NCBI RefSeq assembly: GCF_000373105.1
Contig: NZ_KB890416.1
Span: 1-64,000, forward strand
From: Neolewinella persica DSM 23188
Lineage (GTDB): Bacteria > Bacteroidota > Bacteroidia > Chitinophagales > Saprospiraceae
DNA length: 64,000 nucleotides
Direction of reading: 5' to 3'
Below are positions 3,049 through 62,469 of the stretch, piece after piece. Under the pieces are notes generated by a model. That model was not told the DNA's origin. It searched no databases and was given only the letters and a program-made list of their open reading frames with translations. The position numbers and the translations under genes were made by a program. The stretch's first letter is position 1, and every line of letters begins with the position of its first letter.

Positions 3049-3066
3049 GGCGGGGCCGCAGGTGCA
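3049..3066 (-). repeat. Dispersed 18-bp motif (NotI-core family), intergenic copy
   Basis: The minus strand reads TGCACCTGCGGCCCCGCC (one mismatch to consensus). It lies in the divergent gap between 2982 and 3226, flanked by a T run on the GGC side. Confidence 0.85.
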
Positions 3067-3225
3067 ATGCCCCCGTCCGGGCCTTCCGGCCCGGTCCCTA
3101 AGGAGGAAGGGATTAAGGAGCAAAGGACGGCTTGGACAAAACGACCTAAGGAACGCGAAATAAATAATTCACCTCTTGGTCGAGGAATCGTGCGGAGTAT
3201 TGAGGTTAGTACTATTTTACCGGTC

Positions 3226-4338
3226 ATGAAGAAAGTACTAGGTTTTATTGCAATGTTGGCCGTGGGCGGGCTGTTGGGTTATGTGGGAGCGACCCTGGTT
3301 CTGGGAGACCGGGAACCTGATGGTGTCCCGGTGTTGCCCGAGGACTACGGCACCTATCTGCTACTGTTGTTACCCGTTATATATCTGGTAGTGGTTGGCA
3401 TACATGAATTGGGACATGTACTGGCGGGCCGATGGCAGAATTTTAAATTTTATAACCTGACGATCGGCCCCTTTGCCTGGAAGCTGGACGACGATGACCG
3501 GGTCAGGTTCGTGTGGAACAAAAACCTCAACGTTGCTGGCGGAGTAGCGGTGATGCTGCCCAACGGCAGTAATGCCTTGCGCAAGCGATTCATGTGGTTT
3601 GCCGCCGGAGGCCCGTTGGCGTCGCTGGTGCTGGCGATGACCTGTTATCCATTGGCTCAGGTCTTTGGAGAAACCTCCTTCCTGCGGTTCGTCGCTTACA
3701 CCACCGCTGCACTTTCTATAGTGATCTTCATCGCCACAATACTACCTTTTCGCACCGGAGGTTTTGCGAGCGATGGGTTGCGCATCCTGACTTTTGCCAG
3801 GAACGGTGCCACCGCTTTGGCTGACCTTACCGGGCTACGGGCCCTTGCTCACTTAAGGGCCGGCAAAGCTTACGACGAGTTACCAGTGGAGGAAATGGCC
3901 GCAGTATCGGCCAATGAGGAAGTACCCGGACAGCAACGGGTAACGATGGATTATTACCGTTACCTGCATGCCATCGGGGTAGGGGATATCGCAAAAGCCA
4001 ATAGCCTTTTTACTTCAGTTATGGACCGCCTGGACGTTTACCCTTCGGGTACGCACGGGAATTTTTTCCTGGAGGAAGCGCTCTTTTCCGCTAAATACCT
4101 AAACGACCTGCCAGCTGCTGAGGCTGCTATGGAAAAAGTGACCAGTAGTCCAATGACTGAGCCTTTGAGCATACACCTCGCTAATGCTGCGATTGCGGAA
4201 CTGAAGGGGGATGCGGAGGCTCTCGCTACGGAGCTTCCCGGTATAGAAAAGGGTTTAGCCAGGAGCATGGACCAGAGCCGGGTATCCACCATCCGAACAT
4301 GGTTGTCGGGATGGAAAGACCTGGTGGCGAAAGGCTAG
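3226..4338 (+). CDS. M50-like membrane metalloprotease with a repeat-like C-terminal region
   Basis: The 370-residue protein starts at the ATG at 3226 (MKKVLGFIAML); the frame extends upstream through repeat sequence without a better start. Hydrophobic segments lie near residues 3-25 and 42-60. The second runs into HELGH at about 60-64, the zinc-binding and catalytic HExxH motif of site-2-type proteases. Two more hydrophobic stretches follow (about 130-175). The C-terminal third is soluble and helical, with paired Ala/Leu-rich helices that could be TPR-like and might bind a partner. Membrane proteases of this type usually cut transmembrane substrates. The second zinc-ligand motif is not obvious, so activity is inferred from HELGH alone. 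Confidence 0.6.
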   Translation: MKKVLGFIAMLAVGGLLGYVGATLVLGDREPDGVPVLPEDYGTYLLLLLPVIYLVVVGIHELGHVLAGRWQNFKFYNLTIGPFAWKLDDDDRVRFVWNKNLNVAGGVAVMLPNGSNALRKRFMWFAAGGPLASLVLAMTCYPLAQVFGETSFLRFVAYTTAALSIVIFIATILPFRTGGFASDGLRILTFARNGATALADLTGLRALAHLRAGKAYDELPVEEMAAVSANEEVPGQQRVTMDYYRYLHAIGVGDIAKANSLFTSVMDRLDVYPSGTHGNFFLEEALFSAKYLNDLPAAEAAMEKVTSSPMTEPLSIHLANAAIAELKGDAEALATELPGIEKGLARSMDQSRVSTIRTWLSGWKDLVAKG

Positions 4339-4500
4339 TCATTTGGATCCACCAGTGCGTCAAGATTGAAGTTGTAACTGTGCCGAACTTTGATCTTGAT
4401 GCACTAGCTGCGTTAAGCTATCGTTAACTTCGGTCCACAAATACTGGTTCGATTGACTTTTTCCGGTTTCGTGCGTTTTATCTACCAACTAACGAATACT

Positions 4501-4719
4501 ATGCGTACCATCCAACAATTCTCCACCAACATCAACTGCGGCAGCTGCGTCCGCTCCGTTACCTCCTTTCTGGACGAGGTAGAGGGCGTAACCATCTGGC
4601 GTGTCGATGTGGATGACCCACGGAAAATCCTTTCAGTGGAGGGTTCCGCTGATCCCAAAGCAATCATTACTACCGTACAGGAGGCTGGCTTTGACATTGA
4701 GCCTTTGGTGGAAGCGTAG
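4501..4719 (+). CDS. Heavy-metal-associated (HMA) domain protein, copper-chaperone-like
   Basis: This 72-residue protein starts at the ATG at 4501 (MRTIQQFSTNINCGSC). The CGSC pair at about residues 13-16 occupies the metal-binding loop of the ferredoxin-like HMA fold (usual form CxxC), and the rest follows the strand-helix-strand pattern, ending near GFDIEPL. Such small proteins pass Cu(I) or similar ions to pumps. The usual Met before the first Cys position is Ile-Asn here. No copper pump is adjacent; the nearest candidate is the Cus-like operon at 36-41 kb. Confidence 0.75.
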   Translation: MRTIQQFSTNINCGSCVRSVTSFLDEVEGVTIWRVDVDDPRKILSVEGSADPKAIITTVQEAGFDIEPLVEA

Positions 4720-4783
4720 GTTAGTCTATTGGTCTATTGGGGGGCGACAGAGGCTGGCATTTTAGATTGCCGCCGTCCCGCTA

Positions 4784-5731
4784 TTGCTCCTTAAAACCTT
4801 TTCATTGCACCTGCGTCCGCGCCCAAGTCCGCTTCAGCTGTTACAGCACCCTGCTGCCACTGCCGCAGGAATCAGCTTGTTTTGTAAACGAGATGATCTG
4901 TATACGCTTGCCCCCGGTACGGCGCTGCAGGGAAATAAAGTGCGCAAACTGGAAGGTTTCCTTCAGGCTGCCCTAACGGGAGATCAAAAACCTGTACTCG
5001 TAAGCTTCGGTGGAGCTTACAGCAATCATCTTTCAGCGTTGTCTACTGCCGGTCGGTTGTATGAACTGCGGGTGGTGCTTTACGTACGGGGCGAAGAAGC
5101 CGATAACCCTTTACTTGATCGAGCACGAGCCGACGGGGCCTACCTGCGGCACTTATCGAGGGCGGAGTACCGCCGTAAAGGCGAGGAGGCGTGGTTAAAA
5201 GATAGACAGCTGGAACTGGCGTTGGAGTATCGTCTACCGATCAATTCCATCTGGTTCATTGCCGAAGGAGGAACCTGCCCCGATAGTGCCCGCAACGTCG
5301 GAAAGCTTTACAACGAGGTGGTGGACGAATTGGGCGCGTTGCCCGACTACCTCTGCCTAAGCGCCGGCACCGGTGGCAGTGCAGCGGGGATCATCGGCGC
5401 GGCGGAAGCCGCGACGCGAGTGGAAGTGTTTCCTGCCCTGAAAGGTAACTGGATGGCCGATGAGATCCGGCGACTCTTACCCCAGAATTCTTCAGATAAC
5501 TGGACAACGATTACGGATTACCACTTTGGTGGTTACGGTAAATTTCCGAAGGATTGGATTGTTCCCTCGGAGGGCCTGGCTAAGCGTGCGAAGATCGGTG
5601 AACCCGACTTGCCTCCATTAGAACCGATCTACACGGCTAAGCTATTCTATGGCGTTTTGGACCGGATCCGGAAAGGGGATTACCCGCCAGGGAGTTCGGT
5701 GGTGGTGGTGCATAGTGGGGGGATTTATTGA
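4784..5731 (+). CDS. PLP-dependent D-cysteine desulfhydrase / ACC deaminase family enzyme
   Basis: This is a fold-type II PLP enzyme of about 308-315 residues. GNKVRKLEG (about 50-58) holds the PLP-binding lysine, SFGGAYSNH (about 74-82) is the substrate loop, and AGTGGS is the phosphate-binding loop. Family members deaminate D-cysteine or 1-aminocyclopropane-1-carboxylate; which substrate applies cannot be told. The start is odd: there is no in-frame ATG upstream of the domain, only TTG at 4784 and TTG at 4805, and the latter overlaps the dispersed motif at 4806-4823. That motif is therefore translated as LHLRPRP at the N-terminus. The gene ends in HSGGIY, shorter than the usual glycine-rich tail. 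Confidence 0.8.
   Translation: MLLKTFSLHLRPRPSPLQLLQHPAATAAGISLFCKRDDLYTLAPGTALQGNKVRKLEGFLQAALTGDQKPVLVSFGGAYSNHLSALSTAGRLYELRVVLYVRGEEADNPLLDRARADGAYLRHLSRAEYRRKGEEAWLKDRQLELALEYRLPINSIWFIAEGGTCPDSARNVGKLYNEVVDELGALPDYLCLSAGTGGSAAGIIGAAEAATRVEVFPALKGNWMADEIRRLLPQNSSDNWTTITDYHFGGYGKFPKDWIVPSEGLAKRAKIGEPDLPPLEPIYTAKLFYGVLDRIRKGDYPPGSSVVVVHSGGIY
4806..4823 (+). repeat. Dispersed 18-bp motif, copy at the N-terminus of the PLP-enzyme gene
   Basis: TGCACCTGCGTCCGCGCC, one mismatch to consensus. It lies in the reading frame of the PLP enzyme and is translated LHLRPRP. Confidence 0.85.
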
Positions 5732-5777
5732 AGTAGAGAATGCAGGTCTTTTTATCATTCTCTAATTCATTTATTCT

Positions 5778-6407: not shown

Positions 6408-6425
6408 TGTACCTGCGGCCGCGCC
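6408..6425 (+). repeat. Dispersed 18-bp motif, intergenic copy
   Basis: TGTACCTGCGGCCGCGCC, one mismatch to consensus. It lies in the divergent gap between the CAP lipoprotein (start 6302) and the asparaginase-like gene (start 6515). Confidence 0.85.
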
Positions 6426-8634: not shown

Positions 8635-8652
8635 GGCGCGGCCGCAGGTGCA
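8635..8652 (-). repeat. Dispersed 18-bp motif, intergenic copy
   Basis: The minus strand reads TGCACCTGCGGCCGCGCC, a perfect consensus match, in the divergent gap between 8517 and 8748. Confidence 0.9.
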
Positions 8653-12742: not shown

Positions 12743-12744
12743 GT

Positions 12745-14309: not shown

Positions 14310-14327
14310 GGCGGGGCCGCGGGTGCA
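14310..14327 (-). repeat. Dispersed 18-bp motif, intergenic copy
   Basis: The minus strand reads TGCACCCGCGGCCCCGCC, two mismatches to consensus. It is flanked by a T run, 24 bases upstream of the rlmD -7 element. Confidence 0.8.
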
Positions 14328-18705: not shown

Positions 18706-19998
<1,293 letters not shown>

Positions 19999-20289: not shown

Positions 20290-20307
20290 TGCACCTGCGT
20301 TCTCGCC
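20290..20307 (+). repeat. Dispersed 18-bp motif, intergenic copy
   Basis: TGCACCTGCGTTCTCGCC, a degenerate copy preceded by CTTCC. It lies in the 404-base gap between sucB and the TonB receptor; the rest of that gap holds only the terminator at 20339-20368. Confidence 0.7.
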
Positions 20308-23412: not shown

Positions 23413-23436
23413 AACCGCATGCTAGCAGTTGTTGGC

Positions 23437-23589
23437 TGTAAGGGCAGGAGTCGAACCTGCAAAAGGCGGTTAGTCGATAATTCATCGCTCCGGAAGAGCC
23501 GGGCCCTGCCAGAGCCGTGAATCATGATTTATCCCGGATTCCTCACCCGCGAGACAAGCGGGCATGGCTGCCAGTTTCATCACCTTACA
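23437..23589 (-). ncRNA. tRNA-like RNA, type A copy 1, with oversized variable region
   Basis: Read on the minus strand: acceptor TGTAAGG pairs with CCTTACA; a three-pair D arm with loop AAACTGGCAG; an arm CCCGC-TTGTCTC-GCGGG in the anticodon position (GTC at 34-36); a T arm GCAGG-TTCGACT-CCTGC; and G-CCA after the acceptor. Between the anticodon-type arm and T arm lie about 85 bases, against 13-21 in normal class II tRNAs, themselves able to pair (GATAA with TTATC, GCTC with GAGC). The 153-nt length rules out an ordinary tRNA. Position 37 is U, also unusual. Decoding function is uncertain. Confidence 0.65.
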
Positions 23590-23714
23590 AGGTGCAGGTT
23601 GCAGGTTACAAGTTGCAGGTTACAAGGTGCAGGTTGCAGGTTACAAGTTGCAGGTGTCGGAACCTGTAACTTGCAACTTGCAACTTGTAACTTGTAACTT
23701 GCAACCTGTTTCGC
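23590..23714. repeat. Heptad-repeat hairpin between tRNA-like units
   Basis: Tandem 7-mers of the type GGTTGCA / GGTTACA / AGTTGCA on one side face their complements on the other around TGTCGG, making a long hairpin. The same class of repeat fills 23867-23939 and 24093-24161. Confidence 0.8.
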
Positions 23715-23866
23715 TGTAGAGGCAGGAGTCGAACCTGCAAGGGGACGTTAGCCTTGAACTGTTGCTCCGGAGAGGCAAGCCCCTTACGGAGCATCAATTC
23801 GTGGTTTATTCGTGGTTCCCCACCCGCGAGACAAGCGGGCATGGCTGCCAATTTCATCACTCTACA
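23715..23866 (-). ncRNA. tRNA-like RNA, type B copy 1
   Basis: Acceptor TGTAGAG/CTCTACA, D arm with loop AAATTGGCAG, the same CCCGC-TTGTCTC-GCGGG arm as type A and the same T arm, but a different 84-base variable region. That region closes with GGGGA/TCCCC and holds a long internal hairpin (GCTCCG...CGGAGC enclosing AGGGG...CCTCT). The 3' side continues GCGA rather than GCCA. It is identical over its length to the copy at 24162-24313. The compensated acceptor stem relative to type A (two pairs differ on both sides) is evidence of selection on the RNA fold. Confidence 0.65.
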
Positions 23867-23939
23867 ATGTTCAGGTTTCAAGTTGCAGGTTTTTAGTTCC
23901 CGTTGGAACCTGCAACCTGCAACGTGCAACTTGAATGGC
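23867..23939. repeat. Heptad-repeat spacer
   Basis: GTTGCAGG-type 7-mers followed by complementary AACCTGC-type 7-mers form a shorter hairpin between type B copy 1 and type A copy 2. Confidence 0.7.
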
Positions 23940-24092
23940 TGTAAGGGCAGGAGTCGAACCTGCAAAAGGCGGTTAGTCGATAATTCATCGCTCCGGAAGA
24001 GCCGGGCCCTGCTAGAGCCGTGAATCATGGTTTATCCCGGATTCCTCACCCGCGAGACAAGCGGGCATGGCTGCCAGTTTCATCACCTTACA
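23940..24092 (-). ncRNA. tRNA-like RNA, type A copy 2
   Basis: It differs from copy 1 at two bases of 153, both in the variable region; acceptor, D, anticodon-type and T arms are unchanged. G-CCA again follows the acceptor. The A-spacer-B block is therefore a tandem duplication. Confidence 0.65.
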
Positions 24093-24161
24093 AAGTGCAG
24101 GTTGCAGGTTATAAGTTGCAGGTGTCGGAACCTGTAACTTGCAACTTGCAACCTGTTTCGC
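24093..24161. repeat. Heptad-repeat hairpin between tRNA-like units
   Basis: A shortened version of the 23590-23714 hairpin, again closing around TGTCGG. The length difference fits loss or gain of 7-mer units. Confidence 0.75.
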
Positions 24162-24313
24162 TGTAGAGGCAGGAGTCGAACCTGCAAGGGGACGTTAGCC
24201 TTGAACTGTTGCTCCGGAGAGGCAAGCCCCTTACGGAGCATCAATTCGTGGTTTATTCGTGGTTCCCCACCCGCGAGACAAGCGGGCATGGCTGCCAATT
24301 TCATCACTCTACA
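24162..24313 (-). ncRNA. tRNA-like RNA, type B copy 2 (promoter-proximal unit)
   Basis: Identical to type B copy 1. It is the first unit of the array on the minus strand, beginning about 70 bases downstream of a promoter-like sequence at 24382-24413. Confidence 0.65.
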
Positions 24314-24381
24314 TTGTGTCCGGGTTGTAGTCCCGGAAAAACAACGGAACGTTTTCCATCGCTGTGTCCTTTTGACATTGG

Positions 24382-24613: not shown

Positions 24614-24631
24614 TGCACCTGCGACCGCGCC
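24614..24631 (+). repeat. Dispersed 18-bp motif, intergenic copy
   Basis: TGCACCTGCGACCGCGCC, one mismatch, 82 bases upstream of nadA. Preceded by a pyrimidine run (CTTTTCTC). Confidence 0.85.
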
Positions 24632-29548: not shown

Positions 29549-29566
29549 TGCACCTGCGGCCCCGCC
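29549..29566 (+). repeat. Dispersed 18-bp motif, intergenic copy
   Basis: TGCACCTGCGGCCCCGCC, one mismatch. It lies in the 425-base divergent gap 29325-29749, where otherwise only a small GGTAC/GTACC hairpin near 29339-29361 was noticed. Confidence 0.85.
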
Positions 29567-33914: not shown

Positions 33915-33983
33915 ACCGGACCTCGCAGCGTCCTCCATAACGCCGCCTCAGGCGAAGCTATGGAGGACCTACGGGCGTCCGGT
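33915..33983. repeat. Imperfect palindrome related to the 150-bp MITE-like family
   Basis: Outer arms ACCGGAC/GTCCGGT and inner arms GTCCTCCATA/TATGGAGGAC make a hairpin. The right end (CGGGCGTCCGG) matches the ends of elements at 52240-52388 and 63186-63335, so this may be a deletion derivative. Confidence 0.6.
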
Positions 33984-34006
33984 CTTCTTGCGATTATACT
34001 GACACC

Positions 34007-35565: not shown

Positions 35566-35584
35566 TGCGCGGCCGCAGGAGGCA
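35566..35584 (-). repeat. Dispersed 18-bp motif, degenerate intergenic copy
   Basis: GCGCGGCCGCAGG is intact but the TGCA end has become AGGCA with one extra base. A T run precedes it and CAAAG follows, as in other minus-oriented copies. Confidence 0.65.
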
Positions 35585-36854: not shown

Positions 36855-39800
36855 TCAAAGCTGATTTTGGGTGAGGTAGCTCAGTTCAATGACCAGCTGG
36901 TTAAATTGTAAGAGTTGGTTGAGGTAGTTGCGGCGATTGTCAAGCCCTTTTTCGGTGAGCTGGCTGAAGGTCAGAAAGTCAATGGCGCCCTGCTCAAATT
37001 GTAGTTGGGCGATACGACTAATCCGGGCGTTGCTTTGATCGTTGGCCCTGGCGTATTCAGTAATCGTGGGGCGGAGCCGATCAATTTGTTGCCGGAGGGC
37101 GCGAATACGGCCGCTGTAGCTGTCCGTTATCAACTGCCGTTGATTCGCCAGGCTTTCTTGCTGTAGCTGTAGTTGCTCCGACCGCACCTTCTGGTTCCGT
37201 CGGTCAAGTGGGAGACCAACACCGATGGCGAGGCCCTGAAAGGCAAAATCATTCTCGATGGTCTGGATGAAATAGCCGGCGGAGAGCTGCGGTTGGCGTT
37301 CCAGTCGGTTGGCCAGTGCGGTCTCTTTTTCCAGTCGTGCGCCCTGGCGATCAAGGGTGACCAGGTACGGGTTGTTGCCAGCATCGTCGCCCGGCACTGG
37401 AAGCAGTATCGGGGGGCGGGGCCGCAGGTACAGAGAATCGGGTAAAAGAGCAAGGATGCGCAGCTCCGTCTCTGCAGCTGCCACTGTTTGTTCTGCGGCG
37501 ACAACCTGTTGCCGGATGTTCCGCAACTGTTGGTTAAAGAGTTCTTCGTCAAGAACTCCCAGTGTTCCAGCCTGGATACGGACACCAATATTGGTCCTTA
37601 ATTGCTCGTAGCGAAAGGCCAGGGAATCCAGTAGCTGAAGCTGGGCGTGCTCGTGCTCCCAATTTAAATAGGCCCGCCGGAGCTTATGGCCCAGTTCTCT
37701 GGCGAATACCAGTTGACCGGCTTCCAACTCTGCCACCCGAGCATCGATGACTTCCGCACGCGGCCCCCGCAAAAAGAGGTGATTAAAGTTCTGGCTCACG
37801 CTTACGTTATGGTCAAACTCTTTGGTATTTATCTGACCACCCTGGTAGCCGACCTCCAGCGGAGACCAGGCACCGATTGACCGCCGGTTGAGGCCCTCCG
37901 CCGCAATCGCCAGTTGCTGGCTGCGCGGGGTAGGGTGGTTGCTGATGGCGTATTCGTACAACTCCGAATAACTACCGATGGTTTGGGCGGAGAGACCCGG
38001 ACTGAGGAGCATGGCTATTAATAATCCTCCCATTGCACCTGCGGCCGCGCCCCCTGGTCTATCCTTTCGCAAGGGAGGGGCTTGCCCCCTCCCGCCTGAG
38101 TCCACACCCCTAAACTGCTTACGGTTAACCAGGTAATACAGCGCAGGCAACACAACGAGCGTAAGTAAAGTGGAGGAAAGCAGGCCACCAATGACCACCG
38201 TAGCCAGCGGCCGCTGCACCTCCGCTCCGCTTCCGTTGGAAAGCGCCATCGGCAGAAAGCCAAACGCCGCGACGGCCGCAGTCATCAGCACGGGCCGTAA
38301 ACGGGTGGCGGCCGCTTCGGTGATGAGCGCGGAGAAGTCCGGAAAATCCTCGGCCTTCAAATGCTTGATTGCGCTGATCAGGACAATCCCGTTGAGCACC
38401 GAAATGCCAAACAAGGCGATGAACCCGATGCCCGAAGAAATACTGAACGGCATGCCCCGTAGCTCCAGCGCCAGAATTCCACCGATCGCCGAAAGCGGCA
38501 CCGCAACAAAGATCACGAGGGCATCCCGGAAGGACCCGAAAGCAAGGTACAGCAACAAGAGAATGAGCCCCAACGCCAGCGGCACCGCCACCAATAAACG
38601 AGCGCGGGCCGACTGCAAGGTCTCAAACTGCCCGCCATATTGAATCTCGTAACCAGGCGGCAACTCAAGCTCCGCATTAAGTGCTAACTGGATCTCCGCT
38701 ACCAGGCTTGCCACGTCGCGGTTACGGACGTTGACGCCAATATTGATGAATCGGCGGGCCTGCTCCCGGGAAATCAGCATCGGGCTTTCCCGCTCTTCCA
38801 CCGAAGCGACTTCACTCAGCGGAATCAGCTGGCCGTTCCGCGCCGTAATGCTCAGTTGGTCGAGGTTCAGTTCCTGTCGCGACTGGTCGTTAAGCCTGAC
38901 CACGAGGTCAAACTTCCGCTCTTCCTCGTAGACGTTCCCGACAATCTCCCCAGCGTAGGCTGCCCGGATGAGTTGGTTGGCCTCCCGGACATTGATTCCG
39001 TACTGCGCCATTTTATCCCGATCATAATTGACGGAGAGTTGCTGCAGCCCGTCCGTCCGGTCAACGCGTACGTCGCCGGCACCATCGATACGCTGAATAA
39101 TTCCGGCGGCATGGTCGCCGGTCTCCTTGAGTGTCTCCGCGTTTTCCCCAAAGATTTTGACGGAGATGTCGGATTTAGCTCCGGTCATCAGCTCGTTGAA
39201 ACGAAGTTGGATGGGCTGGGTGAAATCAAAGGAAGCCCAGTTGATCGGTGTCAGCTTTTCTTTCATCATCGCCATGAGATCTTCGCGGTTATCGGCCGAG
39301 GTCCACTCCTCTTTGTCTTTTAGGATGATCATGATGTCGGCATCCTCGATGGCCATCGGGTCGGTCGGTACTTCGGCTGTCCCGATTTTGGAAACGACGT
39401 GCTTCACTTCCGGGAAATTATCGAGCAGGATCTTTTCCGCCATCGTCGAGGTATGGATGCTTTCCTGCAGGGAACTGCCGGGTTTGATGGCCTGCTGCAT
39501 CGCAATGTCCCCTTCCTCCAGCGTTGGGATGAACTCGCCACCCATCCGGCTGAAGACGAAGAGCGAAGCGCCCAGCACCACTAGTGCAATCAGTAGGGTA
39601 GGAGCGGCATGTTTAACGGCGGCCCGCACGACTGGCCGGTACCAACGTTGTAGCGTGCCCATAAGCCGGGCGGCGAAACCCGACTCGGCCCTGATCTTCT
39701 TGGAGATGAACAAGGAGGCCATTACTGGCACGTAGGTAACGCTGAGGATCAGGCTGCCAAGAATGGCGAAACTGACGACCTGTGCCATCGGGCGGAAGGT

Positions 39801-42686: not shown

Positions 42687-42704
42687 TGCACCTGCGCCCG
42701 CGCC
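42687..42704 (+). repeat. Dispersed 18-bp motif, intergenic copy between convergent genes
   Basis: TGCACCTGCGCCCGCGCC, one mismatch, preceded by CTTCCT. It ends two bases before the stop of the DUF5777 gene. Confidence 0.85.
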
Positions 42705-46056: not shown

Positions 46057-46074
46057 GGCGGGGCCGCAGGTGCA
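46057..46074 (-). repeat. Dispersed 18-bp motif, copy in a divergent promoter region
   Basis: The minus strand reads TGCACCTGCGGCCCCGCC. It lies between the divergent cytochrome operon (46000) and sigma factor (46142), with the usual T run on one side and AAAG on the other. Confidence 0.85.
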
Positions 46075-46711: not shown

Positions 46712-48032
46712 AGACTACTCTTTTGAAGATAAAATGAAGTCCCTTTTGGAGGACGAACGGGAGCACCCGTATGATCCGGACCAGTGGCGCCGGCTGGATC
46801 GCCGTTTGAAAGAAAATGACCGGCCACCAGTAGTCTGGTGGCAACGGTGGCTGCCCTATGGCTTTATGCTCCTGGTCGGGCTGTTGGGGTGGCAGCTTTG
46901 GCAGCAGCAAGGGTTGCAACGGACGGTTGTAAAACTGTCTGAACAGTTAATCGCCATGGAGCAAAAGACCCAAAACTCTGAGGTGACTCAAAATCAAGCC
47001 GTAGTAGTGTATGACACCATTTACCGAAATACGGTGATAGAAACAACCACCGAAAGACGCCCGTCCGAAAAGGTCAGGGAAGTGTTCTCTCCCCGTTATG
47101 GGCTGCGGACGGAAATACTTAAGGCCAGCTATCCGTCATTTTTTACCGCTGAAAATGAAGGCGGACAGGCGGCCACGTTCGGAGCAACGGATTTTGCGCT
47201 AACGGCCCAACGGGGGTTTCAGCAATACCGGACGCTCAACTACCGATATTTAGTTGATGGCGCACAACAACTAAAACGGGAAGCCAGCGGGCCCTACTAC
47301 ATTACAGACTTACTGACCGCTAACGCTGTTCAACAACTTCCCCTTAAAGGCCCTGCTTTTCCAACCTTCCCTACACCTGCGGCCTCGCCTCATAAGCTGC
47401 CCCCTGTTCCTCTTTGGCAACGCATAAAACCAAAAAGCTACGCTGTTTCCATTGGTACGGGGCGTTTCAAATCCTGGGCCTATTCCGGAAATGACGACGG
47501 TGATTTATTTGGGGATCTTAACGTTGAGGCCTTCCTCAAAAGCCGGCTGAGCCTGGAAGTGGGGGCCGCTTACCTCGAGCGCTCTTTTGAACGCATCGAA
47601 CCTGAAAATCTGCCGGATGACCTACCCGTGGCAGCACCACTTGACGGCGACGATGAATTGGAGAGCATCAGCGGGAAGCTACAGCAACTACAATTTCCCA
47701 TTGGGCTGCGTTACTATGCCTGGGAGTCTGGTCGTTTTCAGTTCCACGTTGGTGGAGGCCTGGTCCCCTTGATGGGCTTGTCCTCCTCAATTCTCTACGA
47801 ATATGAGAACGATGAAGACGAATATTACACGGTGCCAGCACTTGGTGTTTTGCCCGCCGGACTTCGCCTGGGAGGCGTCTATGGCCGCGTAGGATTACAA
47901 GCAGGCCTGGGTAAACATTGGCAGGTTGGTGTTAGTGCCACGGCCATGCAAACTTTTGGGACTTATACCTACGCCTATCAGCGGCCTTCCTGGGGGCGTT
48001 GGCGGGTTGGCGTGGGGTATCGGCTCAATTGA
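46704..48032 (+). CDS. Membrane-anchored putative anti-sigma factor with a barrel-like C-terminal domain
   Basis: The 442-residue protein starts at the ATG at 46704, overlapping the sigma-factor stop. Residues 1-45 are cytoplasmic and charged (FEDKMKSLLEDEREHPYDPDQWRRLDR-like), 47-66 form one membrane helix, and 67-110 look coiled. The rest is periplasmic, and about 245-442 consists of strands typical of outer-membrane barrels (LSLEVGAAYLERSF, QFHVGGGLVPLMGL, GRVGLQAGLGKHWQVGVSA, ending RWRVGVGYRLN). The sequence around 223-229 (PTPAASP) is an in-frame copy of the dispersed motif. A link between envelope state and the sigma factor is inferred. Confidence 0.7.
   Translation: MSEDYSFEDKMKSLLEDEREHPYDPDQWRRLDRRLKENDRPPVVWWQRWLPYGFMLLVGLLGWQLWQQQGLQRTVVKLSEQLIAMEQKTQNSEVTQNQAVVVYDTIYRNTVIETTTERRPSEKVREVFSPRYGLRTEILKASYPSFFTAENEGGQAATFGATDFALTAQRGFQQYRTLNYRYLVDGAQQLKREASGPYYITDLLTANAVQQLPLKGPAFPTFPTPAASPHKLPPVPLWQRIKPKSYAVSIGTGRFKSWAYSGNDDGDLFGDLNVEAFLKSRLSLEVGAAYLERSFERIEPENLPDDLPVAAPLDGDDELESISGKLQQLQFPIGLRYYAWESGRFQFHVGGGLVPLMGLSSSILYEYENDEDEYYTVPALGVLPAGLRLGGVYGRVGLQAGLGKHWQVGVSATAMQTFGTYTYAYQRPSWGRWRVGVGYRLN
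47372..47389 (+). repeat. Dispersed 18-bp motif, in-frame copy
   Basis: TACACCTGCGGCCTCGCC, two mismatches, preceded by CTTCCC. Translated TPAASP in a Pro-rich linker. Confidence 0.75.
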
Positions 48033-49394: not shown

Positions 49395-49412
49395 GGCGCG
49401 GCCGCAGGCACA
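49395..49412 (-). repeat. Dispersed 18-bp motif, copy in a divergent promoter region
   Basis: The minus strand reads TGTGCCTGCGGCCGCGCC, two mismatches, followed by the usual CAAAG context. Between starts at 49343 and 49501. Confidence 0.8.
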
Positions 49413-49500: not shown

Positions 49501-51909
49501 ATGAAAACCGCTTTACCCGTTTTAATCTTTGTACTCTGCAGCTTTTGCCTGACCGCCCAGGTCACCATCTCCGGCCAGATACTTGAAGCCGACGGTACAA
49601 CGCCCATTCCTTACGCCACCGTTTCTGCCCTGGCTCCGGACAGCAGCCTGTTGGGCGGAAGCCTGACGCTGGACGACGGCTCCTTTGTCCTCAACCTTGC
49701 ATCCCGCGGCCGCGCCCAAATCACGGTCTCCTATATTGGCTATGCTCCTCAGACCAAGGAACTCTTCATCGGGGCCAACAACGACACTTACAGCATTGGC
49801 AAAATCCTCCTGAGCCCCGATGCTCAGACCCTGGAGCAGGTGACCGTGACCGGCGACCGCGCCACTGTTAGTGGTACCCTCGACAAGAAAACCTTCGACC
49901 TCTCCGACCAGCAAGCCCAGGGCGGCGGCTCCGTCCTCGATGCCATGAAGGCCCTGCCCGGCGTCACCGTCACTCAAGACGGTAGCCTCGAACTGCGCGG
50001 CTCCGACCGCGTCGCAGTCCTCATCGACGGCAAGCAATCGGCCATGACTGGTTTCGGCAACCAGCGCAGCCTTGGCAGCATCCCGGCGGGCAACATTGAG
50101 CGGATTGAGATCATCAATAATCCATCAGCTAAATACGACGCGTCCGGCCAGGCGGGCATCATTAACATCATTTACAAAAAGGAAAAGGCCGCAGGTTTCA
50201 ACGGTGAAGTTGGGGTCAGTTATGCCCTCGGCGAGATCACTACCCGCAGAGAAGACCTGCCCACGGAACTCGGTCGCTACCGTCTCAACTCCCACCTTCA
50301 GCCCAATCTGGGGCTGAATTACCGCAGCGACAAAATTCGCGGCTGGTTCCAGGGCTCCGTCCTGGCACAGGAGAAACTGCCCAACAACGAATTCACTACC
50401 CGGAACTACGCCGATGGCCGCCGAACCATCAGCCAGGTGCCGGAGAACCGCCGGCAGATCCACTACGTCGCCAGGGGTGGGGTAGACTTCCTGTTGGATG
50501 AAAATAATACCCTGAGCCTGTCCGGCATCTACGACTACGAGCACCACATCGATACCGCCCAGATTCCCTTCATCGACCTGAACACCAACCAGCGCTACCG
50601 CTACTGGAACTGGAAAGAAGACGAAAGCACCAGCCTGATCAACGGTCGCGCGGACTTCCGCCACAATTTCGGTGCCCCCGGCCACGAGCTGGAGCTCTCC
50701 GCCCAACTCAGCCAGGGTAAGGAAGACGAACAGTACTTCCTCAACGACAGCACCAGCTTCCGTCAGGCCCAGGATACCTCCCACCTCATCGCCATCGAGA
50801 ACATCTCCGCCTTCAACATCGATTACGTTCGTCCGCTGGCGGGTGGCCGCATCGAAGCTGGGGGCCAGTTGCGTTTTCGACGCCTGCCCGTGACCTACGA
50901 GATCGGACAGGGGGTACGCAGCATCATCTACCCCGGCCTGGGGGATGAGTCTCGCTGGACCGAAGACCTCTACGCCGGTTACCTCAACTACGTCTACGAA
51001 AGCGCCGGCTTCGAAGCCGAAGCGGGTCTGCGCGCCGAACAAACGGCGGTGACCTATACCCTCGACCCCGAGAACATATACTACGACGACAACGACGCTT
51101 ATGACTATTTCCGGCTATACCCCAACGTCCGGTTAACCTATAAGATCAATGAAGCCAATAAGCTTTCCCTCTTCTTCAACCGCCGCGTCGATCGGCCAGG
51201 GGAGCAGGAACTACGCGCCTTCGCCAAATATGACGATCCGGAATTACTGAAGGTTGGCAACCCTTACCTGCGGCCCCAGTTCACCCAGACCATCGAAGCA
51301 GCCTACCGCCGGATTTGGGAAACCGGTTCGGCCTTTGCGGCCGTGTACACCCGCCAGAGTGACGATGCTTTTCAGCGTATTTTTAACATTGACAGCAGCA
51401 ACCCGGACTACGATATCATCAACCGGATTTACCAGAACACCGGACGCGCCACCAACCGGGGTGTCGAGCTGCTCTGGAGCCAGGAAGTGAAGGCGATCTG
51501 GAAGTTCAGCCTGGGGGCGAATTTCTACCGCATCGGTATTGAGGAGTATTCGGGCACGCTCTTGTTCCCAACGGTCCGCCCGTTCACGTTGGCGGCTTCC
51601 ACGGGTAACAGTTTTGACCTTAAATTCAACAATCAGTTCACCCTGCCGAAGAATTGGAAAGTACAGCTGACGGGCATCTACCTGGCCCCACGTAACATCC
51701 CCCAGGGCCGCGAACTTGCTCGTTCTTCGGTGGACTTTGCCGTGAGCCGGCCCGTCTTCGCAGGCAAAGGAGAAATGGTCCTGGCGGCAACGGACTTGTT
51801 CAATGGTTTCGGCCTTCGGCAGGAGATTGACGGGGAGGGATTTACGGCGGAGTACCGGAATTTTTATGAGAGCCAGGTGCTGCGGTTGGGGGTAACTTAT
51901 AAATGGTAA
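49501..51909 (+). CDS. TonB-dependent receptor-like outer-membrane protein
   Basis: The 802-residue protein has a signal peptide ending LTAQ. A carboxypeptidase-regulatory domain (SGQILEADGTTPIPYATVSA, about 23-100) is followed by a plug (LDAMKALPGVTVTQDGSLELRGSDRVAVLIDGKQ and KYDASGQAGIINIIYKKEK) and an OMP_b-brl_3-type barrel (NPYLRPQFTQ; final strand ESQVLRLGVTYKW). It lacks a SusD partner. Residues 66-72 (ASRGRAQ) come from a near-copy of the dispersed motif. The ligand is unknown; members of this branch are often tied to peptide or metal uptake. Confidence 0.88.
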   Translation: MKTALPVLIFVLCSFCLTAQVTISGQILEADGTTPIPYATVSALAPDSSLLGGSLTLDDGSFVLNLASRGRAQITVSYIGYAPQTKELFIGANNDTYSIGKILLSPDAQTLEQVTVTGDRATVSGTLDKKTFDLSDQQAQGGGSVLDAMKALPGVTVTQDGSLELRGSDRVAVLIDGKQSAMTGFGNQRSLGSIPAGNIERIEIINNPSAKYDASGQAGIINIIYKKEKAAGFNGEVGVSYALGEITTRREDLPTELGRYRLNSHLQPNLGLNYRSDKIRGWFQGSVLAQEKLPNNEFTTRNYADGRRTISQVPENRRQIHYVARGGVDFLLDENNTLSLSGIYDYEHHIDTAQIPFIDLNTNQRYRYWNWKEDESTSLINGRADFRHNFGAPGHELELSAQLSQGKEDEQYFLNDSTSFRQAQDTSHLIAIENISAFNIDYVRPLAGGRIEAGGQLRFRRLPVTYEIGQGVRSIIYPGLGDESRWTEDLYAGYLNYVYESAGFEAEAGLRAEQTAVTYTLDPENIYYDDNDAYDYFRLYPNVRLTYKINEANKLSLFFNRRVDRPGEQELRAFAKYDDPELLKVGNPYLRPQFTQTIEAAYRRIWETGSAFAAVYTRQSDDAFQRIFNIDSSNPDYDIINRIYQNTGRATNRGVELLWSQEVKAIWKFSLGANFYRIGIEEYSGTLLFPTVRPFTLAASTGNSFDLKFNNQFTLPKNWKVQLTGIYLAPRNIPQGRELARSSVDFAVSRPVFAGKGEMVLAATDLFNGFGLRQEIDGEGFTAEYRNFYESQVLRLGVTYKW
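49698..49716 (+). repeat. Possible dispersed motif, degenerate in-frame copy
   Basis: TGCATCCCGCGGCCGCGCC followed by CAAA: the GCGGCCGCGCC half is perfect, the CACCT part is altered and one base longer. Could be chance within a GC-rich gene. Confidence 0.45.
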
Positions 51910-52147: not shown

Positions 52148-52239
52148 CCTAACCGGACGCGGCTGAAATTCTGAAGGGTCTACATCGGCCGGGATCGGAG
52201 GCGTGAATAGCAAATAGCACAAATTGAGGCTTTTCGGCA

Positions 52240-52388
52240 CAGACGCACGCGGGGCCCTCAGCCCTTTCACTGCTACGCAGTCTCGGGGCACGGGAGGCCA
52301 CGGGGCCTTGATGGGCGAAGGACCCAGTAGCGTCGGCCAGGTCCTGAAGCGAAGCAAATGGGCTTGGTTGACCTGCGGGCGTCCGGAC
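52240..52388. mobile_element. MITE-like element, copy 1 of a 150-bp family
   Basis: It shares length and much sequence with 63186-63335, including CCCTTTCACTGCT, GCAGT, the GCCACGGGG box and the right end ACCTGCGGGCGTCCGG. Its left end is a diverged inverse of the right end. No open reading frame of note. The 562-base gap 51910-52471 otherwise holds only the hairpins before it. Confidence 0.6.
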
Positions 52389-52471
52389 CTTTGGATCAAG
52401 TCTAGGGGGCGTAACTGATAGGCCGTACAAATTGTTATTCACACAGACTAGAGGAACGACCTGGCTATATC

Positions 52472-56080: not shown

Positions 56081-56098
56081 TGCACCTGCGGCCGCGCC
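56081..56098 (+). repeat. Dispersed 18-bp motif, perfect intergenic copy
   Basis: TGCACCTGCGGCCGCGCC preceded by CTTTCCTT and followed by CAAAAAA, a complete example of the extended consensus. Between the MFS gene start (55898) and the PAP2 gene end (56189). Confidence 0.9.
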
Positions 56099-59667: not shown

Positions 59668-59787
59668 AAGATGGATTTACGTGTAAAATAGGGAAGAGAT
59701 TTTGGAGAAATTCTGTAGAACTACTGAAGTCGAATCCTCCTGGAAATGCATTTTGTCAGCATCAGGGATGCCTTTCAATGGAGATAC

Positions 59788-61107
59788 CTATTTCTCAATC
59801 ACAAACTTAACCCCCACAGCTCCCTGAATGGCCGAGAATCCGTTATCTCTGTTGTACGAACTGAAATTCAGGTCCACGCTCTTTAGCCCAAATCGCCAAA
59901 TATGAGCGGAAGCGAGAATGTCGGTATAAGTGACGCCAAGGCTATATTGATTAGCGACAAACTCAGAGAGGTCGTAGTCAGACGTATAGAACGTACTGGT
60001 GGACAGGTGCTCGTCGTAGGGCGCGAAGTGATCCGCCGCCGTCTGGGTGTAGTACCGGAAGGCCGGTCGCAGCGTGAATTGTTGGGTAATCTTCACCGGC
60101 ACTTCCACGTTGGCGGTCACCGAATTAATGCCCCAATCGTCGGTATAGTACCGTAGGAAGGAGCGGACGACGATGCGCTCATTGATGTACGCATGCAGGC
60201 GGCCACCCAGGGCGATCTTCGTTCGGCTATTCGGCAACCGTTCGATGTCATCGGCCAGGGCGAAATCTTCGATGAAGCTGTTCTCAATGTCGGCAAAATA
60301 AACACGCTGAAAGGGCGTGGAAAGCAGCCCGCTTTGTTGTACCACGTCGAGGGAAAGGTTACCCTGCAAGTTGCGACTCAGTATCTGGCTAAAGTTTACC
60401 CCCAGGTTGTAACTCTGGCGGCCCGTCTTGTCCAACCGTGCGAAATTGGGGTTGTAGTTAGCATTTCCGGTAATGGTATGACTTTGAAAGAGACGGTTGG
60501 TCAGTCCACTTCCATCGTCGAAAGGACGAAGCTCGGAAGGGTAAATGGCGTTCCAGCCATCAATAAAAACGTTGGCTTTCAGGCTCAGTTCCGTATTTTT
60601 CTGGTTCATGATTCGTGTGTAGCTACCGCCGACCCCTACCGAAGTGTAGTCATATTCAGTTGAGCCGGAGAGGTTGGCGGACCAAACGATATTGCGATCG
60701 TCGGAACTGTGACTGTAACTGGCCGTGACGTTCGTCCAATTATCACCTTTGGAAGCACCGGAAGATGCCTGGAAGGGGTCGGCCCGGCCACCACCGTCGA
60801 AGGGGTTCACGTTGCTGGAGGATGCCGAAGAGTAAGCGGAGATGCCGACGTTGACGGTGAGCACGTCATCGTCGTTGAGTGGAACAGCGTAGATGACGGT
60901 TGGGTGAATATCGGTCAGTTGCTCCGTACCGGTCCCTCCAGAAACGGCGGCATTATTTCCGTCCTGGCTGTAGTAACTGGTAAGAATCTGCAGCTCGGCG
61001 GTTTCCAGCACGCGCTTTTTATACGACGTGTCCTTCACGGTACTTTGGGCGAGGGCGCAGGTGCAGGGGAGGAGTAGGAGGAGCAGGGGGAGGAGGTATA
61101 GCTTCAT
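59788..61107 (-). CDS. DUF3570 family predicted outer-membrane barrel protein
   Basis: The 439-residue protein starts at the ATG at 61105-61107 (MKLYLLPLLL); the 52-codon upstream extension reads through repeats. The signal peptide is unusual: its last part (CTCALAQ) is encoded by the dispersed motif. The mature chain is rich in outward-facing aromatic strands and ends AIQGAVGVKFVIEK, as a barrel. Near residues 115-119 is S-S-G-A-S, which resembles the S/T-G-A-S/T flavinylation site used by ApbE. It is last in the order thioredoxin, ApbE, DUF4266, DUF3570, a grouping I know from other bacteria. Confidence 0.85.
   Translation of the reverse strand: MKLYLLPLLLLLLPCTCALAQSTVKDTSYKKRVLETAELQILTSYYSQDGNNAAVSGGTGTEQLTDIHPTVIYAVPLNDDDVLTVNVGISAYSSASSSNVNPFDGGGRADPFQASSGASKGDNWTNVTASYSHSSDDRNIVWSANLSGSTEYDYTSVGVGGSYTRIMNQKNTELSLKANVFIDGWNAIYPSELRPFDDGSGLTNRLFQSHTITGNANYNPNFARLDKTGRQSYNLGVNFSQILSRNLQGNLSLDVVQQSGLLSTPFQRVYFADIENSFIEDFALADDIERLPNSRTKIALGGRLHAYINERIVVRSFLRYYTDDWGINSVTANVEVPVKITQQFTLRPAFRYYTQTAADHFAPYDEHLSTSTFYTSDYDLSEFVANQYSLGVTYTDILASAHIWRFGLKSVDLNFSSYNRDNGFSAIQGAVGVKFVIEK
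61048..61065 (-). repeat. Dispersed 18-bp motif, in-frame copy in a signal peptide
   Basis: The minus strand reads TGCACCTGCGCCCTCGCC. Translated CTCALA, covering the signal-peptide cleavage region of the DUF3570 protein. Confidence 0.85.
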
Positions 61108-61161
61108 GGATGATCGTTGGTGGAGTGAGTATGCTGGAACTATCGTTCCTGCATCGGTGTA

Positions 61162-61205
61162 CCCCGGATTACGCGACGGGCTGCGCCACGCCGCTGCATC
61201 CGGGG
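61162..61205. repeat. Inverted repeat CCCCGGAT...ATCCGGGG
   Basis: A 44-base hairpin-capable unit between the DUF4266 and DUF3570 genes; the same 8-base arm forms part of 14951-15035. It probably belongs to a repeat family. Confidence 0.55.
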
Positions 61206-61243
61206 TTAAAACGGTTTGATCCCTCCGGGATCGGTCAGTACAG

Positions 61244-61273
61244 CTGCAACTTGCAACCTGCAACCTGCAACCT
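61244..61273. repeat. Heptad repeat, TGCAACC/TGCAACT units
   Basis: Four consecutive 7-mers of the same class that separates the tRNA-like RNAs at 23.6-24.2 kb. They abut the 3' end of the DUF4266 gene. Confidence 0.7.
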
Positions 61274-61484
61274 AGTTACAGCCACAGCCGCCACCTGTTT
61301 TGCCGCCGTTAGCGCCGGAGGCGGCTTCGCGGTAGCTCTGGAAAGTGGTCTGGTAGCCGTCTATACTGGTGGGGGAAAGGGCCATGTCAGGATCGTTGAG
61401 GTTGACCATTTCATAACCCTTTACGGTTACGCAGGAGGACAGGCCAGCTGCGGCGATAAGGCAAAAAAGCAAGCGCTTAATCAT
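61272..61484 (-). CDS. DUF4266 small lipoprotein
   Basis: The 70-residue protein has a lipobox (AGLSSC, Cys 18), leaving a mature peptide of about 52 residues. The family core VKGYEMVNLNDPDMAL is followed by a Gly-rich tail ending GGCGCN, whose two Cys could bind metal or form a thiol pair. It overlaps the ApbE gene by eight bases (61477-61484), implying tight coexpression. Role unknown; context points to an extracytoplasmic redox or flavin system. Confidence 0.85.
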   Translation of the reverse strand: MIKRLLFCLIAAAGLSSCVTVKGYEMVNLNDPDMALSPTSIDGYQTTFQSYREAASGANGGKTGGGCGCN

Positions 61485-62469
61485 GTTGGTAGGTGGTTTG
61501 AAGGTCTATGCTGCCTGAAGTATGCAGGTGGTTGTCTTCGTCGACGATGATGCAGTCGACGTTAGGAATTTGATTAATGAAGTCGAGGCCAGTGTCAACG
61601 CCCATCACGAAGACGGAAGTAGCCAGGGCATCAGCAAGCTCAGTACTTGGGGCGAGGACGGTGACGCTTATAATGCCAGTACTTGGGTAACCTGTTCTGG
61701 GGTCGATGATGTGGGCGTAGCGGGTGCCGTTGAAACGGACGAACTTCTCGTAATTTCCGGAGGTGACAATAGCACGGCCGTTCACCGGCAACCAGGCGAA
61801 CGCCTTCTCCTTATTTAGCGGATTAGTAATGGCCACCTTCCAGTCCTCGCCGGAGGGTTGCCGCCCCCAGGCGGTCAGATCGCCGGATGCGTTGATGATG
61901 CCAGCTTTGCATCCGGCCTTTTCCAAAAGCTGACGTGCCCGATCTGCGGCGTATCCCTTGCCAATGGCCCCGAATCCAATCTTCATGCCGGCTTCGGGAA
62001 GAAACACGGTGCGCTTAGCTTCGTCGAGGACGATTTTATCAAACCCCACCCGGGCGACAGAAGCGGCGATGTTATCGGCTTCAGGCATCGCCTTCATGGA
62101 ACCATCGAATCGCCAGAGGCGGTCCATGCTTGCGTAGGAAATGTCGAAGGCACCGTCGGTAAGCCGGCTCAGGCCTAGGGCCCGCTGGATGAGGCCAAAA
62201 AGCTCGGCGTCGACTTTTACGGGGTGGTCCCCCGCGGCGGCGTTGATGGCCGAGGTTTGAGAATTAGGATCCCAGCTAGAAATCAATCGCTCAATGCGTT
62301 GAATCTCAGCTATGGCCATTGCATTATACCCTTCCTCTGCACCTGCGCCCGCGCCCACGGTCGTAATGTCGAACCGGGAACCCATCAGGAGCAGCGTCTC
62401 GTGGCTGGTTACCTGAGCGCAAATCAATAACGGCATAAAGAGCAGCGAAAAAAGGAGGTGCCTGATCAT
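61477..62469 (-). CDS. apbE: ApbE-like FAD:protein FMN transferase
   Basis: It transfers FMN from FAD onto Ser/Thr of exported proteins. The 330-residue protein has a signal peptide (cut near LLICAQ), then FDISYASMDRLWRFDG, IGFGAIGKGYAADRARQLL (FAD site), INASGDLTAWGRQPSGEDWKVAI and HIIDPRTGYPSTG with TDALATSVFVMG-like LADALATSVFVMG, all ApbE hallmarks. Residues about 39-44 (GAGAGA) are encoded by an in-frame dispersed motif at the strand where homologues have a variable loop. It overlaps both neighbours by a few bases. Confidence 0.93.
   Translation of the reverse strand: MIRHLLFSLLFMPLLICAQVTSHETLLLMGSRFDITTVGAGAGAEEGYNAMAIAEIQRIERLISSWDPNSQTSAINAAAGDHPVKVDAELFGLIQRALGLSRLTDGAFDISYASMDRLWRFDGSMKAMPEADNIAASVARVGFDKIVLDEAKRTVFLPEAGMKIGFGAIGKGYAADRARQLLEKAGCKAGIINASGDLTAWGRQPSGEDWKVAITNPLNKEKAFAWLPVNGRAIVTSGNYEKFVRFNGTRYAHIIDPRTGYPSTGIISVTVLAPSTELADALATSVFVMGVDTGLDFINQIPNVDCIIVDEDNHLHTSGSIDLQTTYQHD
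62338..62355 (+). repeat. Dispersed 18-bp motif, in-frame copy in apbE
   Basis: TGCACCTGCGCCCGCGCC, one mismatch, preceded by CTTCCTC. The gene reads its complement as GAGAGA. Confidence 0.85.

Follow-up and report, generated by a model that had tools for sequence, protein, structure and literature searches.

The 64,000-nucleotide stretch of Neolewinella DNA analysed here (the window) contains 18 copies of the motif TGCACCTGCGGCCGCGCC at up to three mismatches. Chance would supply 0.13 (the mean of 100 shuffles, with a maximum of 1), which rules out a chance origin for these copies. Copies were assigned to intergenic or coding DNA by motif search combined with the gene bounds from our own gene caller. 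An exact copy with full flanks (CCTTTGCACC...CCCAAAAAA) lies between genes at 56081..56098 on the plus strand, and another exact copy occupies a divergent gap at 8635..8652 on the minus strand. Intergenic copies carrying one mismatch were found at 3049..3066 and 46057..46074 on the minus strand and at 4806..4823, 6408..6425 and 29549..29566 on the plus strand. Also on the plus strand and with a single mismatch are the copy in a convergent gap at 42687..42704 and the copy upstream of nadA at 24614..24631, the latter placed by comparison of nadA gaps. Two mismatches are present in the intergenic minus-strand copies at 14310..14327 and 49395..49412, and three in the plus-strand copy at 20290..20307, which is intergenic and aimed at the 3' end of a gene.

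The remaining copies in the window were interpreted by reading the coding sequence around them. On the minus strand, a copy with one mismatch (19460..19477) falls in an Ala/Pro linker (PAPAAPP) of a gene that we take to encode a 2-oxoacid dehydrogenase E2-like protein, one with two mismatches (37415..37432) encodes LYLRPRP in the presumably TolC-like part of a long ORF, and one with two mismatches (61048..61065) encodes what is, judged from its sequence, the end of a probable signal peptide (LLLLLLPCTCALAQ). On the plus strand, an exact copy (38034..38051) runs antisense through a junction (GAAAGA) of an ORF that appears to us to be a fused RND pump and TolC-like protein, a copy with two mismatches (47372..47389) lies in a coding linker (PTPAASP), and a copy with one mismatch (62338..62355) lies antisense in apbE (VGAGAGAEEGY), where length is equal to that in 8 orthologs. 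The original prediction had listed twenty sites in mixed orientation; 18 of them lie precisely at the coordinates given and depart from the motif by 0–3 mismatches, and the mixed orientation was borne out. The other two were judged by sequence inspection. The site at 35566..35583 (minus strand), given as degenerate, has four mismatches and keeps its flanks (TACTTT...AAAAAA), so that it is probably a degenerate copy, while the site at 49698..49715 (plus strand), given as possible, matches only with a one-base shift inside what we assume to be a TonB receptor-like gene and is doubtful. At gathering scores, the known RNA families present in the window amount to a single tRNA, and a known RNA family was therefore rejected as the identity of the motif. 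A search of a phage collection with one gene of the window gave no match, which says little about origin.

The core consensus spans 18 bp, TGCACCTGCG[G/t]CC[G/c]CGCC; a pyrimidine lead precedes it and an A-rich tail follows. The flanks that had been described for the window were confirmed on 136 copies drawn from 464 kb: YCYT lies directly 5' of the core, C and an A-rich run lie 3' of it, and a weaker pyrimidine-rich lead reaches to about -22. Across the 84 contigs of the source genome (G000) we counted 1784 copies at up to three mismatches, against 20 for a reversed-pattern control. The strands are equal, with 896 and 888 copies as compared with 10 and 10 for the control. The proposed genome-wide repeat had been staked on such a count exceeding expectation, and it survives.

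The copies were said to lie mostly in gaps. This holds for 79 of the 136 copies; the other 57 lie inside predicted genes. Density in G000 is 1.18 copies per kb in intergenic DNA and 0.14 in coding DNA (about 8-fold), and two congeners behave similarly, at 1.17 versus 0.14 in G010 and 0.58 versus 0.10 in G001. The 57 coding copies are found mainly in probable signal peptides (CTCxRAQ), linkers (APAAAP) and loops, and 12 of them fall within the first 90 nt of genes, a region that makes up 8.9% of coding DNA. Among the classes of gap, divergent gaps are the densest at 1.59 copies per kb. Such a peak might be expected if the motif served a large regulon as promoter, operator or terminator, and the pyrimidine lead ending in TTTG is reminiscent of the -7 boxes of Bacteroidota. 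The claim that copies often stand upstream of a gene did not, however, translate into an orientation signal: of the copies in co-directional gaps, 18 share the direction of the gene and 25 have the opposite one, 7 copies sit in convergent gaps, and the large share inside genes would serve no such role. The copy in the nadA gap, moreover, changes orientation and distance between species. Since the copies show no orientation towards genes, they are not promoters, and on these orientation and placement counts we rejected a promoter, operator or terminator role as the common function; a regulatory reading is very unlikely.

Spacing was compared with a null model that preserves the genic/intergenic split. 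It was more even than chance in G000, where 0 of 2000 null draws were as even, and in G010 (P=0.001); in G001 the excess of evenness was not significant (P=0.056). The longest motif-free stretch within the 464 kb is 10.9 kb, and the genes in the two longest such stretches looked ordinary by eye. Over-even spacing, intergenic preference and strand balance would all suit a compaction or anchoring site, that is, a site kept at regular intervals by selection and bound by a nucleoid-associated protein or by one that organises the chromosome or repairs DNA. According to PMC1939737, Karlin saw in evenly spaced uptake sequences a hint that they serve replication, repair or compaction; the same paper holds that uptake sequences are less even than compaction sites should be. 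The in-frame copies at probable signal-peptide ends and in linkers also look like accumulation up to a limit of tolerance, which counts against a site of this kind.

We sought the origin of the copies by comparing genes that carry the motif in some species and lack it in others. If the motif spread by insertion as a REP-like repeat or, as had been suggested, as a mobile mini-element, then genes with a copy should be longer than genes without one. Length at the copy was instead constant in 9 of 9 ApbE sequences, in 19 of 19 MtaB-like sequences and in all 10 readable HisS sequences (8 of the 18 HisS rows were unreadable), whether the motif was present or absent. A fragmentary match in G007 and a distant match in G003 were left out of these comparisons, and G009 and G019 lack an MtaB-like ortholog, having paralogs at ~31% instead. 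Because length does not change in these three genes across the genus, the copies in them arose by substitution and are not insertions, and a discrete insertion unit with borders of the REP or MITE type was rejected on these alignments. The MtaB-like copies of G013, G004 and G017 bear the bases characteristic of their own genomes; in G006 and G011, by contrast, the MtaB-like copies still have the G000-type form and not the consensus of the genome they are in.

A wider tblastn screen took 96 coding copies (57 from G000, 18 from G001 and 21 from G010) against 2.13 Mb of relatives, with the G001 and G010 queries run additionally against 0.46 Mb of G000. A usable homolog was obtained for 26 copies and none for 70. 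The best alignments were ungapped near the motif in 9 of the 26 and gapped in 17, a result that, together with the many copies in a single genus and their mixed orientation, could be taken to favour a mobile element. The gapped cases, however, are mostly distant homologs in linkers at 22–37% identity, and in the six homologs at 48% identity or above the net length differences were 0, 0, 0, 0, +1 and -3. The even spacing and the fit of coding copies to the reading frame also speak against insertion, and the idea of a spreading mini-element, unsupported by these comparisons, is hardly credible.

The motif is restricted to the genus, with 0–6 matches per genome (at up to two mismatches) in 99 relatives from other genera. 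Motif discovery did not find it in three members of the same family (83 kb of G021, 13 kb of G022 and 84 kb of G023), nor outside Neolewinella in 70 of 80 single loci (those of at least 8 kb, five of them Neolewinella). Other words do repeat in this material: the 13 kb of G022 contain CCATTGCCATC 5 times, GGCGAAAGCC recurs in L066, and further repeated words were seen in L071, L073 and L076. Within the genus, the two sister species poorest in the G000 motif carry different motifs of their own, which appear from their sequences to be dialects of one system. The G001-type motif numbers 691 copies in G001, 398 in G006 and 4–241 in the remaining 19 genomes. The G010-type motif (CATTGCTACTTTGNNAGYCAAAA), a form almost wholly rewritten, core included, numbers 524 in its own genome and has no copy in any of the 20 further Neolewinella genomes searched. 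Further sampled species also yielded a consensus of their own, so that at least five distinct forms exist inside the genus. The dialect refinement, seeded by hand in one round, gave no form for G012, G016 and G020, and G003, G007, G009 and G018 lay outside the sample. On a single-gene nadA tree, with strong support on 5 of 16 inner branches, the sister pairs G001 and G006 and G004 and G017 each have a common form; G008 and G011, also sisters, are unlike at one position of the core, which runs against dialects tracking phylogeny. In 14 of 19 Neolewinella genomes the gap upstream of nadA contains a copy, of one dialect or another (the gap of G013 was read by eye), with orientation and distance varying between species. 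A CTACCCGCG word in the nadA gap of G008 was left out of this count.

Dialects weigh on the choice between the readings that remain. If the motif bound a chromosome-organising protein, then about a thousand sites would have to change jointly in each species, and the absence of the G010 motif from its 20 congeners and the fall of G000-type counts to tens or fewer in some congeners are difficult to reconcile with such a role; we regard it as the main rival, and as unlikely. Sequence-biased gene conversion or mutation in which uptake plays no part, or a mark by which a defence system tells self from non-self, would yield both in-place origin and dialects. For this group of explanations it might be added that in a viral contig collection, searched without a chance control, an exact 22-base form of the motif was absent and the exact 18-mer occurred in only 16 stretches; a third exact form occurred in 1 stretch, and such counts have little bearing on origin. 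Against them, we know of no such process that would build a flanked core of 18 bp, and we consider these explanations quite improbable.

The original prediction had left open a protein-binding or an uptake site. The evidence agrees with this in kind, and of the two the uptake reading appears to fit better, because of the dialects, the balanced strands, the even spacing and the permissive placement in coding DNA. Over-representation, strand balance, origin by substitution and dialects are all found here as in uptake sequences, and even spacing is found in G000 and G010 and not in G001. We therefore propose, from genome sequence, that the motif is probably a DNA uptake sequence, a tag of self-DNA with dialects, in a presumably naturally competent Neolewinella species. 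A surface or periplasmic receptor would bind the motif in external double-stranded DNA, which would cross the outer membrane through a Riemerella-type machine independent of type IV pili and enter the cytoplasm via ComEC, aided by a multi-HHH (ComEA-like) protein, to be recombined into the chromosome by DprA and RecA. Under such biased uptake, alleles that resemble the motif by chance would recombine more often and copies would accumulate wherever selection permits, by molecular drive. A shift in receptor preference would then let a genome drift to a new dialect.

Of the pilus-less machinery known from Riemerella, which also counts an RS04920/RS04915-type outer-membrane pair, RS09020, ComF and RecA among its parts, the set of ComEC, DprA and an HHH protein is present in the genus. 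ComEC was found in 21 of 21 Neolewinella genomes and DprA and HHH_3 each in 20 of 21, the single genome without both being 55% complete. These proteins also match in 10–11 of 14 control genomes; the set is widespread, necessary and not sufficient, and is no proof of competence. A PilB/PilT-type ATPase, the motor of type IV pili, was not recognised in the 21 genomes by a PF00437 search, which gave weak matches in 20 of them at 25.5 bits or less (cut-off 24.9), 11 of the 21 just above it; the one match that was read is a Clp ATPase. By this motor search the genus differs from the known neisserial (DUS) and pasteurellacean (USS) systems, for which a type IV pilus uptake machine is characteristic. 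Among the papers searched, we found no uptake or transformation data for the genus and none joining Lewinella with natural transformation.

A dialect motif in a genus with no recognised pilus motor would suggest an independent origin of motif-specific uptake. On balance we lean towards a third uptake-sequence system of independent origin, one that would be the first in Bacteroidota, would operate without type IV pili and would have at least five dialect forms in one genus. If this is true, the genus offers a natural series of shifted receptor specificities and a genus-wide record of joint change in receptor and motif, the motif could be used as bait for a Bacteroidota DNA receptor, and a tag on donor DNA would make a simple genetic tool for marine Saprospiraceae.

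To our knowledge, uptake of DNA by species tag is known to date from two unrelated bacterial families, and all DUS and USS systems that we know of use pili; our searches of open-licence papers likewise turned up motif-specific uptake only in the pilus-using Neisseriaceae and Pasteurellaceae. The density of USS in Pasteurellaceae is higher than that of the Neolewinella motif. The DUS of Neisseriaceae has very many copies per genome and dialects with a common core, in line with phylogeny (Frye et al. 2013, PMC3630211), and a length of up to about 13 nt (PMC12616744). In that family the distribution of DUS has also served to locate prophages and integrative elements (PMC7371117). The Neolewinella motif is like DUS in its very many copies and in species dialects in line with phylogeny. 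It differs in its unrelated and longer sequence (an 18-bp core plus flanks), in belonging to another phylum, in the common core being largely gone in G010, and in a function read from genomes in which no pilus motor was recognised. For the USS of Pasteurellaceae, with cores AAGTGCGGT and ACAAGCGGT (PMC12616744), PMC12616744 and PMC1939737 describe a core with weaker A/T-rich flanks, even spacing, dialects and build-up through point mutations, both in non-coding DNA and where coding DNA is unconstrained. The Neolewinella motif resembles USS in its core with weaker flanks, even spacing, substitution origin and dialects, whereas its core sequence is different, its distinct forms number at least five within a single genus, and USS uptake is pilus-based. 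Closest in phylum is Riemerella, which is competent without pili by way of ComEC, DprA, ComF, RecA and an HHH protein (PMC8459023), and in which R. columbina DNA outcompetes foreign DNA with no convincing uptake motif, the top k-mers being A-rich (PMC7965970). Competence there is experimental and in Neolewinella is predicted from the genome; both are Bacteroidota with ComEC, DprA and HHH proteins and no recognised pilus motor, and Riemerella is, by analogy, the Bacteroidota precedent for competence without pili.

Within the window, we counted 18 copies of the motif TGCACCTGCGGCCGCGCC at <=3 mismatches, compared with a mean of 0.13 and a maximum of 1 in 100 shuffles. The original prediction had located all 18 correctly; of the two extra copies that it listed, the one at 35566 is degenerate with intact flanks, and the one at 49698 is doubtful. 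The genome-wide excess that it had anticipated was also observed, since the whole genome G000 (7.08 Mb, 84 contigs) contains 896 + 888 copies vs 10 + 10 for the reversed pattern. The window's NadA protein shares 92% identity with its counterparts in Neolewinella aurantiaca and N. lacunae and 90% with that in N. maritima, and on this basis the genome was taken for a Neolewinella (Saprospiraceae, Bacteroidota). Matching nadA upstream sequences suggested that, among the comparison genomes, G014 is N. aurantiaca, G005 N. lacunae, G008 N. maritima, G020 Lewinella sp. IMCC34183 and G004 Lewinella sp. JB7.

Motif anatomy was read from 136 copies in 464 kb (the window plus 400 kb of G000 contigs 1 and 2). 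The core consensus is TGCACCTGCG, followed by G (60%, T 24%), CC, G (65%, C 26%) and CGCC. Before the core stand YCYT and, out to about -22, a weaker lead that is pyrimidine-rich and A/C; after it come C (55%) and a run of five A-rich positions.

At <=2 mismatches, the 20 congeners carry 4 to 1235 motif copies each, and the genomes of other genera (52 from the family, 47 from the order) 0 to 6 each. The two motif-poorest congeners, G001 and G010, carry repeated motifs of their own, TTYTACCTGCGCTCCGCCGCC-AAAA and CATTGCTACTTTGNNAGYC-AAAA, respectively. Genome-wide, the G001 type (<=2 mismatches) was found 691 times in G001, 398 times in its sister G006 and 4–241 times elsewhere; the G010 type (<=3 mismatches) was found 524 times in G010 and 0 times in all 20 others. 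The fitted profiles put one site in every 2.9 kb of G000, 3.1 kb of G010 and 6.1 kb of G001. Seeded motif refinement yielded further forms from 20–34 sites each (0–3 in the reversed-sequence controls that were run), namely GCACCTGCGtcmGCGCC in G002, GCACCtGCGgCAGCGCC in G013, GCACCcGCGwCCGCGCC in G019, GCACCtGCGgCCCCGCC in G011, GCtCCyGCGnCCCCGCC in G004 and G017, and CCcGCGCtCCGgCGCC in G006. The survey gave no form in G012, G016 and G020 and a partial one in G015; G003, G007, G009 and G018 lay outside its sample. The forms of G002, G013, G019 and G011 are one to three positions off that of G000, and we called five forms distinct (G000, G013, G001/G006, G004/G017 and G010). A nadA tree of 19 species, with strong support on 5 of 16 inner branches, paired G001 with G006 (100/98), G008 with G011 (100/100) and G004 with G017 (92/96). 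The first and last pairs each share a form, and one core position separates the forms of G008 and G011.

Genes in the 464 kb were called with a purpose-built ORF/hexamer caller (392 genes, 85.6% coding), which placed 79 of the 136 copies between genes and 57 in coding sequence. Motif density was 1.18 per kb between genes vs 0.14 within them in G000, and for the species' own motifs 1.17 vs 0.14 in G010 and 0.58 vs 0.10 in G001. Orientation and gap type argue against a shared role as directional promoter or terminator: in co-directional gaps 18 copies run with the gene and 25 against it, and divergent gaps hold a further 29 and convergent gaps 7. Many coding copies encode probable signal-peptide ends (CTCGRAQ, CTSVRAQ), Ala/Pro linkers (APAAAP) or, antisense, GAAAGA-type stretches. 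Of the 57, 12 are located within the first 90 nt of a gene, a region that makes up 8.9% of coding DNA. One exact copy sits in the junction of a 1451-aa ORF (window 36855-41210) that we take to resemble an RND heavy-metal pump fused to a TolC-like outer-membrane protein. Spacing was compared with random placement preserving the genic/intergenic split. Copies were more evenly spaced than this null in G000 (variance/mean² 0.541 vs 1.06 ± 0.18; 0 of 2000 trials) and in G010 (0.438 vs 0.99 ± 0.28; P=0.001); the value for G001 (0.528 vs 0.94 ± 0.32; P=0.056) was not significant. Counting copies at <=4 mismatches, the longest motif-free stretch in the 464 kb was 10.9 kb and held ordinary-looking genes.

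Of 19 species, 14 have a copy, in either orientation, in the gap upstream of nadA: pattern matching found it in 11, and in G015, G017 and G020 it was recognised by eye and from the 9-bp core. The copy in G010, G001 and G006 is of the species' own dialect type; G018, G002, G019, G008 and G013 have none. The original prediction had considered a mobile mini-element, and this reading is disfavoured by the absence of length change at copies in three genes. In apbE, 23 residues separate the same anchors in 9/9 species read, the copies of G018 and G019 lying two codons beyond the position of the G000 copy. In a gene with Pfam UPF0004 and Radical SAM domains, presumably MtaB-like, exactly 8 residues separate the anchors in 19/19 sequences; the motif is present in 15, encoded as G(A/G)NAGA(K/R), and absent from G016, G012, G001 and G010. 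Here the copies of G013, G004 and G017 have bases of their own dialect, and those of G006 and G011, contrary to expectation, retain the G000-type form. HisS is equally long with and without the motif in the 10 readable rows out of 18. These constant distances and lengths indicate that the copies in these three well-comparable genes arose by substitution, not insertion; a broader screen of coding copies returned mostly distant homologs.

Other repeats were seen alongside the motif. The window has a tandem array at 23433-24318 (226-bp unit, 2.9 copies), composed in part of heptamers such as AACTTGC; similar heptamers form a small island at 61244-61273, 37 kb from the array. A ~190-bp repeat in gaps (52203-52394 and 63150-63343; 74-82% identity, ending in GGTTGACCTGCGGGCGTCCGG), part of which recurs at 33961-33986, is possibly a second dispersed family. 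K-mers gave further short repeats in G000 contig 1 (GTTGTCGGGTTGTC, TTCTCGATTCTCGA) and G010 contigs 1-2 (GAGTCGGGAGTCGG, TCATTAGATCAT). Among stretches from relatives, L071 (Saprospiraceae MAG-358, 14.5 kb) contains CCCCCTCAGTA 8 times, 7 on one strand, dense, oriented and dissimilar to the Neolewinella motif; L073 and L076 (Saprospira grandis) contain a longer dispersed repeat around GGGCCGAGCAGACCTGCGAGC (about 6-7 copies/21 kb); and L176-L177 (G022, same family) contain CCATTGCCATC 5 times in 13 kb (expected <=0.02).

Among candidate uptake proteins, ComEC (PF03772) was detected in 21/21 genomes, and DprA (PF02481) and HHH_3 (PF12836) each in 20/21, the exception for both being G009, which is 55% complete. 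The G000 HHH_3 protein has 452 aa and three HHH stretches. These families also occur in 10 to 11 of 14 control genomes. Matches to PF00437 (PilB/PilT family) in 20/21 genomes were weak, covering at most about a quarter of the profile and reaching at most 25.5 bits (cut-off 24.9, barely exceeded in 11/21), and the one examined was a Clp-type ATPase. Any uptake is therefore probably not pilus-driven. According to PMC8459023, Riemerella is competent without pilus genes; besides ComEC, DprA, ComF and RecA, it requires an HHH protein and other proteins whose function is unknown. It is a precedent for pilus-less competence and shares ComEC, DprA and HHH proteins with the Neolewinella genomes. R. columbina favours its own DNA, but only A-rich k-mers stood out in it (PMC7965970). 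Besides that inconclusive Riemerella k-mer table, no report of an uptake motif in Bacteroidota came up in searches of open-licence papers, among them one for Lewinella natural transformation.

Known uptake sequences are described as evenly spaced and subject to molecular drive in unconstrained regions (PMC1939737); their dialects, built around a conserved inner core, track phylogeny (PMC12616744 and PMC3630211). Even spacing, accumulation in unconstrained regions and phylogeny-linked dialects are common to the Neolewinella motif and the uptake sequences of Neisseriaceae (DUS) and Pasteurellaceae (USS), and the Haemophilus USS likewise has a strong core with weaker flanks. Those systems require a pilus; in the Neolewinella genomes no PilB/PilT-type pilus motor was recognised. 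Weighing the common features against this difference, we lean towards a motif that works like DUS/USS, of which it would be a putative member.
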